DNA from: Clostridia bacterium
GTDB lineage: Bacteria > Bacillota > Clostridia > UBA1212
Direction: 5' to 3'
Assembly: GCA_017848335.1 (NCBI GenBank)
Contig: JAGDAX010000071.1
Span: 1 to 43,404, forward strand
DNA: 43,404 bases
Below are positions 14,282 through 25,017 of this stretch, in pieces. The notes below the pieces were generated by a model, which had not been told where the DNA came from, ran no database searches, and was given only the letters and a program-made list of their open reading frames with translations. Every line of letters begins with the position of its first letter. Position 1 is the first letter of the stretch. The position numbers and the translations under genes were made by a program.

Positions 14282-15475
14282 ATGAATCCGGGAGCGTTAC
14301 TTGCCATGGACGTCGAAAAGTATTTCATTTCTTTTCCGAAGCTTGGCATCAATCTGGAAAACATCAACCCCGTGGCGTTCAGGATCGGCAGCTTTGCGAT
14401 CCGCTGGTACGGTATTATCATATGCCTGGGATTGCTGCTCTGCGTCATATTGGGCATGAGAAAGTGCAAAAAGTACGCCATCAAGGCCGATGACCTGCTG
14501 GATTATATTATTATAGGGATCCCTGCCGCCATCATAGGCGCAAGAATATACTACGTGGCGTTCAGCTGGAAGGATTTCTCCGGAAACCTGAAGGAGATAT
14601 TCGCCATCTGGAAAGGCGGCCTCGCCATCTACGGCGCTGTTATCGCGATTGCCATTACTGCGTTCATTATCTGCAGGGTCAAAAAAATCAGATTCCTGCA
14701 CATTCTGGACTTTGCGCTGCCCTACGTGATGCTGGGGCAGGCTATCGGACGCTGGGGCAATTTCTTCAACCAGGAAGCCTTCGGCGGGCCGACGAATTTC
14801 GCTTTGGGAATGACCGGCAATCTGATTGCCCGAAAGATGGGAGAAGGCGTCACGGTGCACCCCACGTTCCTCTATGAGTCGCTGTGGTGCTTCGCGGGCT
14901 TTGCGTTCATCGCGATCTACAGGCAGAAGCTGCAGAAGAACATCGGCGAGGTTTCGGCACTGTATATGATCGTATACGGCGCGGAGCGTGCGCTGGTGGA
15001 GGGGCTCAGGACGGACAGCCTGATGCTCAATATCGGAAGCTTCGGCATAAGGGTTTCGCAGTGGCTTTCGGTGGCGCTGGTGATCGTCGGTATTGCGCTG
15101 TTCATTGACTCGCGCATCAGGGGCAAGAGCCTGGCGGAGCTTCGCGAGGAGTTTGCGCAGAAGCTTGCCGGGAATGATCCGGGAAGCAAAACCGGCGCGG
15201 AGACGGCCGGTGAGACGGCGGGCGAGCCTGAGGAGGCGACAGGGCTTGCGGCCATCGCCAGGAAGCTTTCGGAGGCGGAGCTTTTGAGCGAAGCCGGGGA
15301 GAATTCCGGAGAGACCGCCGAGGGGGCTGCCGGAGAAATTACCGGAGAGACCGCCGAAGGGGCGGCAGGAGAAATTACCGGGGAGACAGCCGAAGAGGCG
15401 GCCGGAGAAATTACCGGGGAGACCGCCGAAAAGGCTGCCGGATCTGAAGCTTCCGGCGAGGTTAAGGACTTCTGA
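14282..15475 (+). CDS. lgt: prolipoprotein diacylglyceryl transferase with long acidic C-terminal tail
   Basis: Transfers diacylglycerol from phosphatidylglycerol to the lipobox Cys of pre-lipoproteins, in the cytoplasmic membrane. Seven hydrophobic segments are readable. The family motifs are GGLAIYGAV, GRWGNFFNQEAFGG (catalytic Arg and the conserved NxE) and YGAERALVEGLRTDSL (second key Arg). The normal enzyme ends near residue 285. Here about 110 more residues follow, rich in Glu, Ala, Gly and Thr, including three exact-length copies of a 12-residue AEGAAGEITGET unit. The start is ATG with AAGGAG upstream. rodA follows 85 bp later on the same strand. Confidence 0.93.
   Translation: MNPGALLAMDVEKYFISFPKLGINLENINPVAFRIGSFAIRWYGIIICLGLLLCVILGMRKCKKYAIKADDLLDYIIIGIPAAIIGARIYYVAFSWKDFSGNLKEIFAIWKGGLAIYGAVIAIAITAFIICRVKKIRFLHILDFALPYVMLGQAIGRWGNFFNQEAFGGPTNFALGMTGNLIARKMGEGVTVHPTFLYESLWCFAGFAFIAIYRQKLQKNIGEVSALYMIVYGAERALVEGLRTDSLMLNIGSFGIRVSQWLSVALVIVGIALFIDSRIRGKSLAELREEFAQKLAGNDPGSKTGAETAGETAGEPEEATGLAAIARKLSEAELLSEAGENSGETAEGAAGEITGETAEGAAGEITGETAEEAAGEITGETAEKAAGSEASGEVKDF
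15317..15441 (+). repeat. 36-bp coding tandem repeat in the lgt tail
   Basis: Units start at 15317, 15353, 15389 and (partial) 15425, each encoding AE(G/E)AAGEITGET. The period is a multiple of three, so copy-number change would keep the frame. Confidence 0.9.
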
Positions 15476-19949: not shown

Positions 19950-21023
19950 ATGGCTTTATCCATTAAGGACGGTATCAGAAACGGACTGGATAAGATCCAG
20001 AGACTTTGGTCCGATGACGTTTCCATAGAGGAGGACGTGGAGGTTATCGGCGGAAATTCCGAGGTCGTGAAATCCGAAGAGATCAAAGATACCATAACCA
20101 TGGAACCTGCTGACAAGACGGCTCCTGCCACAAGAGATACGCTTGTCTTCAAAGGCAAATCCCATAAGAGCGAAGAAATATCTGCTGATTCCAGAGGGAC
20201 CGAGCAGTCTATTTATGCACATGAGAACGATTACACAGGAGACAGGGGTTATGAAGATAATTCCCACGTCTCTTTTTCTGTATCCCGAAATACCGGCTTC
20301 AAGGTCAAGCCCGCCAGAACGATGCCTGCCGCAGCTGTTTCGACCGTCACCGTATCCGATACGCGCAGGGATACGCAGCCTGTGAAGGATTATTCCTACA
20401 GCGCCGCCAACGAGTCGTCCGCCTTCGGCATTCGCCCCTCCGTGAGCTTTGACGCAGCCATACCGACCCCGCTGAAGCCCGAGAAGTCCATTACCGACAA
20501 TGACGCAGGGCGCGTCCGCGCAAAGGCAGCCGTTGGCTTCAATACCACGGCGGCGATGTCCTCGCAGCAGAGTACGTCCTTCAGCGGCACCACAAGAGCT
20601 AATTCAACAATAGGAGGCAAAGCCATGGATACCAAAACAACTGTTCAGATTTTAAAGCCCGCCAATATAAGCGAAGCCAGCGAGGCCAGCGCGCTTCTCA
20701 AGAAGGGAGTTATCGTCGTGGCTGTGCTTTCCGGGATCAGCGACAAGAACGCCCGCGTCAGATACAGTGATTTCCTTTGCGGCTGCTGCAAGGGCTGTGA
20801 CGCGGATTTCTGCGAGATCGTGCCCGTGGACGCCGCCGACGCAGTGCTGATGGCGATCCCCGGCAACGTAACGCTCGTGCAGCCCGTCAAGGAGCAGGAG
20901 AAGAAGGCCGAGGAGCCCGTGACCTCCGACCTCAAGATGGACACCCAGATCAACAATATGTTTATGGGCGTTGACATCACCGGCGAGAGACCGACCACCA
21001 ACTGGTACAATTCGAGATTCTGA
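19950..21023 (+). CDS. sepF: SepF-like cell division protein with a cysteine cluster
   Basis: Membrane-binding FtsZ anchor of Gram-positive septation. Residues 1-22 (MALSIKDGIRNGLDKIQRLW) form the amphipathic membrane-targeting helix. Residues about 25-225 are a long polar linker, much longer than in Bacillus SepF (about 150 residues in total). Residues about 228-320 are the SepF core: TVQILKPANISEASEASALL, GVIVVAVL, RYSDFLCG, AVLMAIPGNVTLV. In the core, Cys277, 279, 280, 283 and 288 occupy the stretch that normally reads as a hydrophobic beta strand and turn. ATG 19950 is preferred over the adjacent TTG 19947. The neighbours (HlyD-like gene, yggS) support the call. Confidence 0.85.
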   Translation: MALSIKDGIRNGLDKIQRLWSDDVSIEEDVEVIGGNSEVVKSEEIKDTITMEPADKTAPATRDTLVFKGKSHKSEEISADSRGTEQSIYAHENDYTGDRGYEDNSHVSFSVSRNTGFKVKPARTMPAAAVSTVTVSDTRRDTQPVKDYSYSAANESSAFGIRPSVSFDAAIPTPLKPEKSITDNDAGRVRAKAAVGFNTTAAMSSQQSTSFSGTTRANSTIGGKAMDTKTTVQILKPANISEASEASALLKKGVIVVAVLSGISDKNARVRYSDFLCGCCKGCDADFCEIVPVDAADAVLMAIPGNVTLVQPVKEQEKKAEEPVTSDLKMDTQINNMFMGVDITGERPTTNWYNSRF

Positions 21024-22215: not shown

Positions 22216-25017
22216 ATGGACGAAATTATTACCAATGGTATTCCCGAGGGCGAAAACAAAGAGGCTCCCGGCAGGATCATGCCGATAGACGTCGAGTATG
22301 AGATGAAGCGCGCGTTCATAGAATATTCTATGAGCGTCATTGTTGACAGGGCTCTTCCTGACGTGAGGGACGGCATGAAGCCTGTTCACAGGCGCATCAT
22401 TTATTCGCTTTATGAGCAGGGATTTACACCGGACAGCGCATACAGAAAATGCGCTACCACGGTGGGTTACGTAATGGGTAAGTACCACCCCCACGGCGAC
22501 GCGGCCATTTACGATTCGCTTGTAAGGCTTGCGCAGGATTTCTCGATGAGATATACGCTGGTGGACGGCAACGGCAACTTCGGCTCCAGGGACAACGACC
22601 CGCCTGCCGCATCCCGTTACACCGAGGCGCGTATGGCCAGGATTTCCACCGAAATGGTGGCGGATATACGCAAAAATACCGTGGACTTCAGGCCCAACTT
22701 CGACGAGCACGAGTCCGAGCCGGTGGTGCTTCCTTCGCGCTTCCCGAACCTTCTCGTAAACGGTTCCTCCGGTATCGCGGTGGGTATGGCTACCGAAATT
22801 CCTCCGCACAATCTCGGCGAGGTGATCGACGGCGTCGTGGCGATGATCGATAACCCGGAGATCTCGGTGGACGAGCTTCTGCGCTACATCAAGGGGCCGG
22901 ATTTTCCGACAGCTGCCAATATTATCGGCAGACAGGGCATCCGCGAGGCCTATATGACGGGCAGGGGTCGTATTGTCGTGCGCGCCGAGGCTCATATCGA
23001 GGACATGGCGGGCGGCAGACAGCGCATCGTCATCACGGAGCTTCCGTACAAGGTCAACAACGCCATGCTCGTGAAGCGCATCGCGGACCTTCACAAGGAA
23101 AAGAAGATCGAGGGCATTTCGGACCTTCGCGACGAATACAGTAAAAAAGGCATACGCATCGTTATCGAGCTCAAAAAGGACGCCAACGCCAACGTGCTCC
23201 TTAACCGCCTCTATGCCAACACTCCGCTGCAGGACGCCTTCTGCGTCAATATGCTGGCGGTGGTGCCCGGGGCCCACGGCAAATACGAGCCTAAGCTGCT
23301 CAACCTCAAGCAGATACTCGAGTATTATATCGAGCACCAAAAGAACGTTGTCACCAGGCGCACACAGTTCGACCTGGACAAGGCTTCGGACAGGGCGCAC
23401 CTTCTCGAGGGCACTCTCAAGGCTATAGACAATATCGAAGAGGTCATCGCCATCATCAGGGGCTCGCGTCTCGAATCTGAAGCCAAGCAAAAGCTCATGG
23501 AACGCTTCGACTTCTCGGAGCGCCAGGCACAATATATCGTGGATCTGCGGCTCGGCCGTCTGGTCGGTCTCGAGCGCGACAAGATCCTTGAGGAATACAA
23601 CGAGCGGCTGGCGGACATTGCGTACTTCTCGAGCCTTCTGGCGGACGAGACCAAGCTTTTCGGCGTCATAAAGGACGAGCTTATCGCCATCAAGGAAAAG
23701 TACGGCGACGAAAGGCGCACGCGGCTGCTGGAGGCCGAGGGTGAGATCGATCTTGAGGACCTGATCGAGGAGAAGGACATCGCCATCACCGTCACGGAGC
23801 ACGGGTACGTGAAGCGCACCTCGTCGGACACCTATAAGGCGCAGAACCGCGGCGGCAAGGGCGTGCTCGGCCTCACCACCAAGGAAGAGGATTTCGTGAA
23901 GCACATTCTCGTGACTTCATCGCACAATATGGTGATGTTCATCACAAATATGGGCCAGATGTACGGCGTCAAGGGCTACGAAATTCCGGACGCCGGCCGC
24001 ACCGCCAAGGGCACGCCGATAGTCAACCTCATACCGGTCGAAAAGGGCGAGACCATACAGGCCATCATCCCCATCAGAACGTTTGAGGACGCCAAGTATC
24101 TCATTATGTGCACCAAGTCGGGCATCATCAAAAAGACCCGTCTGGAGCTTTACAGGAATCTCCGCAAGGCCGGTCTCAGGGCCACGCTTCTCCGCGAAGG
24201 CGACGAGCTGGTCAACGCCATGCTTGCCAACGACGGCGACAGCTTTGTGGTGGCTACGCGAAGCGGTCTGGCTTTAAGGTTTGACGGCAACGACGTGAGA
24301 GACGTGGGAAGGGCTTCCTTCGGCGTCATCGGTATCAGGCCGCGGGGCGACGATTACGTGGTGGGCTTTGACGTCTGCCGCGGCGAGGACGAGAAGCTGC
24401 TGTTCATATCCGAATACGGCTACGGCAAGCGCACGTCCGCTGACGAATTCCGCCAGCACGGCAGGGGCGGCAAGGGTATGACCGCATACAAGGTCACCGA
24501 AAAGACCGGCAAGCTCTGCGGCATGATGACCGCGGACGACGACAAGGACGTGATGGTCATCAACCTCGCCGGCACGGTCATCAGAATTCGCGTGGCCGAC
24601 ATAAGCGTTCTGGGGCGCAGTACCTCCGGCGTAAGGCTCATGAAGGCATCCGGGGACAACCCGGTGATCGGCTTCACGACCGTTGCACACGCAAGGGACG
24701 AGGCAGAGGCAGAGGGCGAAGGCATCACGGACGAATCGGGCAATGGCGGCGAAATCGGCGAAGCCTCCGGCGACGGAGCAGGGGCCGGCAGCGCAGACGA
24801 CGGCTTCGAAGGCGCGGACGGTGTTTTTGACAGCGCGGACGAGGATCTTGAAGGCGCGGACGGTGATTTTGACGATGCGGACGAAGCCGAAGAGTCCGAC
24901 GAAGCCGGTTCCTCCGAGATCTCCGATGATTTCGACGGAGACGATGAGCTTTTCGGCGAGATAGTCGACGACCTGTACGGGGAAAACGACGGCAGGGACG
25001 ATTCCTCTGACGAATGA
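22216..25017 (+). CDS. gyrA: DNA gyrase subunit A with long acidic tail
   Basis: Breaks and rejoins DNA for negative supercoiling, together with GyrB (not in the window). The catalytic Tyr is Tyr135 in AASRYTEARM. The quinolone region reads KYHPHGDAAIYDSLV: the position of E. coli Ser83 is Ala96 and that of Asp87 is Asp100. The C-terminal domain has the GyrA box QNRGGKG at about residue 543, which argues for gyrase rather than topoisomerase IV. From about residue 827 to 933 the protein is an acidic Asp/Glu/Gly tail with internal repeats (EGADGxFDxADE). Length 933, longer than usual because of the tail. It is a single gene with its own promoter and a leader of about 345 nt. The start ATG follows CAGGAG. 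Confidence 0.96.
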   Translation: MDEIITNGIPEGENKEAPGRIMPIDVEYEMKRAFIEYSMSVIVDRALPDVRDGMKPVHRRIIYSLYEQGFTPDSAYRKCATTVGYVMGKYHPHGDAAIYDSLVRLAQDFSMRYTLVDGNGNFGSRDNDPPAASRYTEARMARISTEMVADIRKNTVDFRPNFDEHESEPVVLPSRFPNLLVNGSSGIAVGMATEIPPHNLGEVIDGVVAMIDNPEISVDELLRYIKGPDFPTAANIIGRQGIREAYMTGRGRIVVRAEAHIEDMAGGRQRIVITELPYKVNNAMLVKRIADLHKEKKIEGISDLRDEYSKKGIRIVIELKKDANANVLLNRLYANTPLQDAFCVNMLAVVPGAHGKYEPKLLNLKQILEYYIEHQKNVVTRRTQFDLDKASDRAHLLEGTLKAIDNIEEVIAIIRGSRLESEAKQKLMERFDFSERQAQYIVDLRLGRLVGLERDKILEEYNERLADIAYFSSLLADETKLFGVIKDELIAIKEKYGDERRTRLLEAEGEIDLEDLIEEKDIAITVTEHGYVKRTSSDTYKAQNRGGKGVLGLTTKEEDFVKHILVTSSHNMVMFITNMGQMYGVKGYEIPDAGRTAKGTPIVNLIPVEKGETIQAIIPIRTFEDAKYLIMCTKSGIIKKTRLELYRNLRKAGLRATLLREGDELVNAMLANDGDSFVVATRSGLALRFDGNDVRDVGRASFGVIGIRPRGDDYVVGFDVCRGEDEKLLFISEYGYGKRTSADEFRQHGRGGKGMTAYKVTEKTGKLCGMMTADDDKDVMVINLAGTVIRIRVADISVLGRSTSGVRLMKASGDNPVIGFTTVAHARDEAEAEGEGITDESGNGGEIGEASGDGAGAGSADDGFEGADGVFDSADEDLEGADGDFDDADEAEESDEAGSSEISDDFDGDDELFGEIVDDLYGENDGRDDSSDE

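Follow-up and report, generated by a model that had tools for sequence, protein, structure and literature searches.

A SepF protein with a cysteine cluster and altered FtsZ-docking residues in a genus of Clostridia with tandem ftsZ genes

The closest described relatives of the protein discussed below are the SepF proteins of Bacillus subtilis and Corynebacterium glutamicum. In C. glutamicum, helices α1 and α2 build a functional SepF dimer that binds FtsZ (PMC7118173, PMC8178401), and each FtsZ pocket of this dimer draws residues from both protomers (PMC7118173). The double mutation K125E/F131A abolishes FtsZ binding, and a core construct termed SepF-ΔML, which lacks the membrane helix, acts on FtsZ polymerisation in vitro like the full protein (PMC7118173). 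In B. subtilis, the G109K mutation of SepF impairs polymerisation (PMC5717166). On the side of FtsZ, a few bacteria carry two ftsZ genes, and a survey of FtsZ evolution places their extra copy outside the dcw cluster (PMC9871819).

The sepF gene described here lies in DNA from a Clostridia bacterium (GTDB lineage Bacteria; Bacillota; Clostridia; UBA1212). The window, meaning the whole stretch that was analyzed, covers 43,404 nucleotides (contig JAGDAX010000071.1 of assembly GCA_017848335.1, positions 1 to 43,404 of the forward strand). The genus consists of uncultured, largely rumen-derived bacteria, and its named public records were all assembled from metagenomes: Mageeibacillus sp. UBA1212, UBA1243, a MAG labelled Ruminococcus, and MAGs from yak and goat rumen. 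Six genomes of the genus, including that of the window, were compared. An earlier note on this DNA had proposed that a cluster of five cysteines in SepF could bind zinc or an iron-sulfur cluster and make septation respond to metal or redox state.

The sepF gene and its protein

The sepF gene occupies positions 19,950–21,023 of the plus strand. It starts with ATG, is preceded by GAGGGGG, and encodes 357 amino acid residues; the translation opens with MALSIKDGIRNGLDKIQRLW and contains SDFLCGCCKGCDADFCEI. Residues 233–307 match the SepF profile PF04472 with 30.2 bits against a cut-off of 27 in a protein search. When the contigs of the genome are searched with the same profile, the locus scores 33.8 bits and is the sole SepF above the cut-off. 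A candidate second copy on another contig (C141) was rejected, as it scores 15.7 bits, below the cut-off, and lies in a 253-residue reading frame that follows a coaD-like gene. Searches of NCBIfam, and of the PDB with the single sequence, returned no match.

The protein has three parts. Residues 1 to about 23 (19,950–20,018, plus strand) form an N-terminal amphipathic helix, the presumed membrane anchor, which has the highest hydrophobic moment in this SepF and in most of its relatives. A low-confidence full-length model, built from six sequences, places the helix at residues 2–22; the linker is too poorly modelled to be judged from it. This linker of about 200 residues (20,019–20,624, plus strand) contains, in the genus alignment, two conserved stretches at residues 89–110 (20,214–20,279) and 189–199 (20,514–20,546), which is unusual for a linker. 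They may serve another division protein as docking sites.

The core domain (PF04472; 20,646–20,873, plus strand) was modelled with AlphaFold2 from a 96-sequence alignment, at a pLDDT of about 97. The predicted β-α-β-α-β-β fold is that of SepF, with Z scores of 12.1–14.7 to all solved SepF structures and 9.9 for the next match. The closest is B. subtilis SepF (PDB 3zih; Z 14.7, rmsd 1.1 Å). The glycine of the DFxxG motif in α2 is present as G278, and this position is glycine in all 140 aligned SepFs. The assignment of the gene to SepF, made earlier from the sequence, is borne out by the profile score and the predicted fold.

Next to sepF lies a yggS-like gene, as in B. subtilis. Elsewhere in the window, an lgt-like gene has a low-complexity tail end with repeats of GEITGETAEGAA-type units (14,917–15,475), and a protein similar to the A subunit of gyrase or topoisomerase IV (22,216–25,017) has a long C-terminal tail of about 100 residues that is acidic, repeat-like, and rich in D, E, G, and S (24,683–25,017).

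The cysteines and their distribution

Translation places cysteines at exactly the residues named earlier, 277, 279, 280, 283, and 288 (codons within 20,778–20,813). All five cysteines of the protein are thus confined to 12 residues; taking the cysteine content of 1.4% in the genus, the chance of such a cluster in a protein of this kind is about 5e-5. The cluster is real and beyond chance. Alignment of the six species shows that four of the five cysteines are conserved. The motif C-G-C-C-K-G-C (20,778–20,798, plus strand), which carries Cys277, 279, 280, and 283 around Gly278, is identical in all of them. Its codons differ synonymously, and the SepF cores of the genus are only about 50–60% identical to the copy in the window. 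Cys288 (20,811–20,813, plus strand), which the earlier note had counted as a fifth member, is serine in four of the other species and arginine in one. A DNA pattern for CGCCKGC followed by D or E occurs in one of 398 genomes from the phylum, the window's own, and is absent from the others. Two matches to a CCKGC pattern in Xenorhabdus are taken as chance, one (L156) lying in a permease-like reading frame and the other (L157) antisense to an AMP-ligase-like frame.

The cluster had been assigned to a strand and turn near the dimer interface and FtsZ-binding side. The confident core model revises the first part of this: helix α2 spans residues 266–282, so that C277, C279, and C280 are helical, C283 follows just beyond the C-terminal end, and C288 lies in the next strand. 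A second, poor model from six sequences ends α2 at C277, and the two disagree on the helicity of residues 278–282; the local shape there is therefore not settled. The second part stands. Gly278 aligns with G109 of B. subtilis SepF, whose G109K form is PDB 3zii, and α2 is one of the two dimer-building helices in C. glutamicum (PMC7118173). The cluster is thus predicted from the model to sit in the helical interface that serves FtsZ binding in bacterial SepF dimers. If Gly278 faces the dimer, as we infer from G109, then C280 and C283 would face the core of the protein itself and C277 and C279 would lie on the flanks.

Cysteines in this region are not limited to the genus. The alignment comprises the six SepFs of the genus, 24 others of the order, and 110 from the rest of the class. 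Position 279 is cysteine in all 30 SepFs of the order (genus included) compared to 0 of 110 in the rest of the class, and position 280 in 29 of 30 compared to 4 of 110. The first cysteine of α1 shows a different distribution: it is found in 23 of the 24 other order members and 5 of the 110 class members, and in none of the six genus members. Most SepFs of the order have a C-x3-C pair in α1 and a cysteine at 285, three cysteines that are missing from the genus, where C277 and C283 are present instead. The other genera (G007, G009–G030) share C279 with the window's SepF, and C280 in all but one case. They mostly keep the α1 pair, C285, the aromatic residue at 300, and the basic residue at 289. 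They lack C283 and, except for G030, C277, and none of them was found to have tandem ftsZ genes. The sister genus (G006) holds a middle position, its SepF having GCCKG but neither C277 nor C283. Even where the positions move, there are about four cysteines per core on α1 and α2. The cluster is thus the form that an order-wide trait takes in this genus. A distant class member (G123, locus L148) has extra cysteines near α2 (DYICGAAEGMDC), possibly by independent gain.

What the cysteines do is a separate matter. One explanation follows the earlier note and makes C277, C279, C280, and C283, probably contributed by the two protomers, the ligands of zinc or an iron-sulfur cluster at the interface of the dimer; metal or redox state would then control SepF dimerisation and, through it, septation. 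In its favor, four invariant cysteines lie at a known dimer and FtsZ-binding interface, and SepFs across the order carry about four cysteines per core on α1 and α2. Moreover, ideal helix geometry would allow any of three pairs (C277/C280, C279/C283, C280/C283) to hold one metal. It would not allow this for all four together: on a continuous helix the sulfurs of C277 and C283 are 9.7–13.6 Å apart, and the four cysteines of one chain cannot reach one metal. With a separation of at least 9.7 Å, if the helix is right, a four-cysteine site inside a single helix is geometrically disfavored by the model, and since pairs are within reach, two protomers could form such a site between them. However, C280 and C283 occupy positions that belong to the hydrophobic core of ordinary SepF (V/A and L/I), the cluster matches no known metal motif, and nothing favors sensing over structure. 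A literature search, covering titles and the openings of abstracts, found no report of a metal or cysteine site in SepF. That the cluster binds metal of any kind is doubtful, and a role as a metal or redox switch is unlikely.

Alternatively, small or hydrophobic residues of α1 and α2 (A, S, V, L) may have drifted to cysteine across the order, in which case the motif of the genus would be one outcome of relaxed or co-evolving packing with neither metal nor redox role. Most of the replaced residues are indeed small or hydrophobic (S277, A279, V280, L283, and alanine in α1), and the lineage is somewhat cysteine-rich. FtsZ of the lineage has gained cysteines compared to FtsZ elsewhere, so that part of the enrichment in SepF may be a drift toward cysteine. 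A bias toward cysteine is by itself rejected as the cause of the excess, however, because cysteine makes up 5.8% of the SepF core in the genus and the order compared to 1.4–1.7% of other proteins of the lineage, an excess of approximately fourfold, and 0.8% of SepF in the class. In addition, the near-complete retention of C279 and C280 over the six families of the order and the fully identical motif in the genus exceed what drift would be expected to produce. We regard drift in packing as improbable.

The FtsZ-docking face, the FtsZ pair, and a predicted internal start

Three further residues of this face are altered in all six species (all on the plus strand). Lys281 (20,790–20,792) replaces a near-invariant aromatic residue, which is Tyr or Phe in 106 of the 110 class SepFs. 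Glu289 (20,814–20,816) stands at the position of C. glutamicum K125, where 23 of the 24 other order SepFs and 98 of 110 in the class have Lys or Arg. Leu300 (20,847–20,849) occupies the position of C. glutamicum F131 and B. subtilis F126, which is Tyr or Phe in 24 of 24 and 92 of 110, respectively. The canonical residues of the FtsZ-tail pocket are thus absent from the SepFs of the genus, and contact with a canonical FtsZ tail should be weak. The pocket is a functional trait that varies inside the SepF family and does not define it: 12 of the 110 class SepFs lack a basic residue at 289 and 18 lack an aromatic one at 300. The combination of all three changes is confined to this genus; in its sister genus two of these positions are altered, and a partial CCKG motif is present. 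E289 alone is found in family f41 and L300 alone in family f21, in both cases with canonical or near-canonical FtsZ tails, and so neither change is by itself proof of retargeting. A simple charge swap between E289 and the K/R of the FtsZ-A tail is kept only as a lead, given the canonical tails of family f41.

In each of the six genomes, two tandem ftsZ genes adjoin ftsA, and no other genus of the order shows such a pair; as the six genomes are related, the co-occurrence of this duplication with the changes in SepF counts as one evolutionary event. In the genome of the window (G000) the pair (loci L177 and L185) lies beside ftsA on the minus strand (C65:8179-10533), and the arrangement is the same in the other five (G001–G005). 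Among 128 genomes of the class, non-fragment second ftsZ matches occur otherwise only in G131, as a copy that is not in tandem, and in G137, where the sequence contains stops. No ftsZ was found in the sister-genus MAG, which is 76% complete. In G030, ftsZ (L182/L264, C44:6010-7273) appears broken into two overlapping frames, and undetermined bases lie close to where they meet; this is probably an assembly gap and not a real break.

Both tandem proteins contain Tubulin and FtsZ_C domains, GGGTGTG, the T7 loop, and intact GTPase motifs, and both score above the TIGR00065 cut-off. They come out provisionally as sister clades (support 100/99) in a tree with long branches. They differ at the C-terminal end. 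FtsZ-B ends canonically, with DDDIPSFLRRS in the genome of the window, while all six FtsZ-A proteins terminate in F/Y-x-W-[KR]-P-I-G-F and have no canonical tail of the D/E-x-[IV]-P-x-F-L type. FtsA is also diverged, falling under its family cut-off in all six.

Finally, the sepF coding sequence contains an internal Shine-Dalgarno sequence, AGGAGG (20,612–20,617, plus strand). Positions 20,612–20,627 read AGGAGG-CAAAGCC-ATG, in frame, and the ATG encodes M226 immediately ahead of the core. Initiation there is predicted to yield a core-only SepF of 132 residues (20,625–21,023, plus strand). All six species have GGA-GGN, two codons, and ATG at the start of the core, with GGAGG at a spacing of 7 nt. 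In each gene this is the sole perfect Shine-Dalgarno sequence of at least 5 nt among 10–19 in-frame internal ATG, GTG, or TTG codons. GGA accounts for only 14–34% of the remaining glycine codons in these genes, which gives a naive product of 2e-4 for species that are not independent. Comparable sites near the core boundary are rare elsewhere (1 of 110 in the class, 3 of 24 in the order); those of the order belong to two other families (G012 and G013, loci L019 and L031; G030, locus L040). The ftsZ-B gene of the window's genome has AGGAGGT ahead of its ATG. It is thus probable, from conservation of the site, that the genus makes a second, short SepF without the membrane helix, which by analogy would resemble SepF-ΔML. 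A literature search for SepF with an internal start gave no match.

A proposed rebuilt docking step and its relation to known systems

The remodelling extends beyond the cysteines and takes in the lost pocket residues, the duplicated ftsZ with its new tail, the diverged FtsA, and a probable second form of SepF. These changes suggest that the FtsZ-docking step has been rewired in this genus. The explanation we favor, which is plausible although still tentative, is that the cluster belongs to a SepF whose helical docking interface has been rebuilt and retargeted mainly to FtsZ-A, and which is also made in a short form.

The course of events may have been as follows. SepFs of the order would already have had extra cysteines on α1 and α2. 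In the genus, the α1 pair would have been lost and two further α2 cysteines gained, fixing C-G-C-C-K-G-C around the glycine of the dimer interface. This lineage would also have duplicated ftsZ in tandem, FtsZ-B retaining the canonical tail and FtsZ-A acquiring F-x-W-[KR]-P-I-G-F, and the two SepF residues with a demonstrated role in canonical-tail binding in other systems would have disappeared. SepF would now serve mainly FtsZ-A through the rebuilt interface, and FtsZ-B may keep its usual tail for FtsA or other partners. The cysteines would stabilize the rebuilt dimer: their thiols may be buried and simply pack, or thiolate pairs contributed by the two protomers may hold a structural metal. 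The internal start could supply a membrane-free core able to bundle FtsZ without tethering it. The most complete version, a two-FtsZ bacterial divisome in which SepF, after the tandem duplication, was retargeted to the FtsZ-A tail by a cysteine-rich dimer interface bridged by metal, with one gene yielding both tether and soluble core, is speculative and appears very unlikely as a whole.

The docking pocket of bacterial SepF and the tail of FtsZ are conserved across distant phyla, and both sides are changed in this genus. It thus offers a natural experiment on the rewiring of a core division contact and on why a bacterium keeps two FtsZs. A natural short SepF would split FtsZ bundling from membrane tethering, which the literature consulted achieved only with constructs. 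The cysteine trait spans an order of mostly uncultured anaerobes, in which finding a metal at the division ring would be novel.

Compared to B. subtilis SepF (PDB 3zih, 3zii, 8hzq), the protein of the window has the same core fold, DFLxG glycine, and N-terminal amphipathic helix. Unlike it, the protein carries C-x-C-C-x2-C on α2, a linker of about 200 residues, and an internal start, and it shows Y-to-K, R/K-to-E, and F-to-L changes at interface and FtsZ-pocket positions. The C. glutamicum SepF-FtsZ complex (PDB 6sat, 6scp; PMC7118173) has the same core fold (Z 13.4–13.7), and an α-helical dimer with two-protomer FtsZ pockets is expected here as well; the positions of K125 and F131 differ, being E and L. 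Archaea with FtsZ1, FtsZ2, and SepF (PMC8178401) and chloroplasts with FtsZ1 and FtsZ2 (PMC8142252) likewise have two FtsZ paralogues per cell or organelle, and in the archaeal system SepF is the tether (PMC8178401). In contrast to these pairs, that of the present genus is a tandem duplication within one bacterial genus, with a SepF of bacterial lineage and with FtsA also present.
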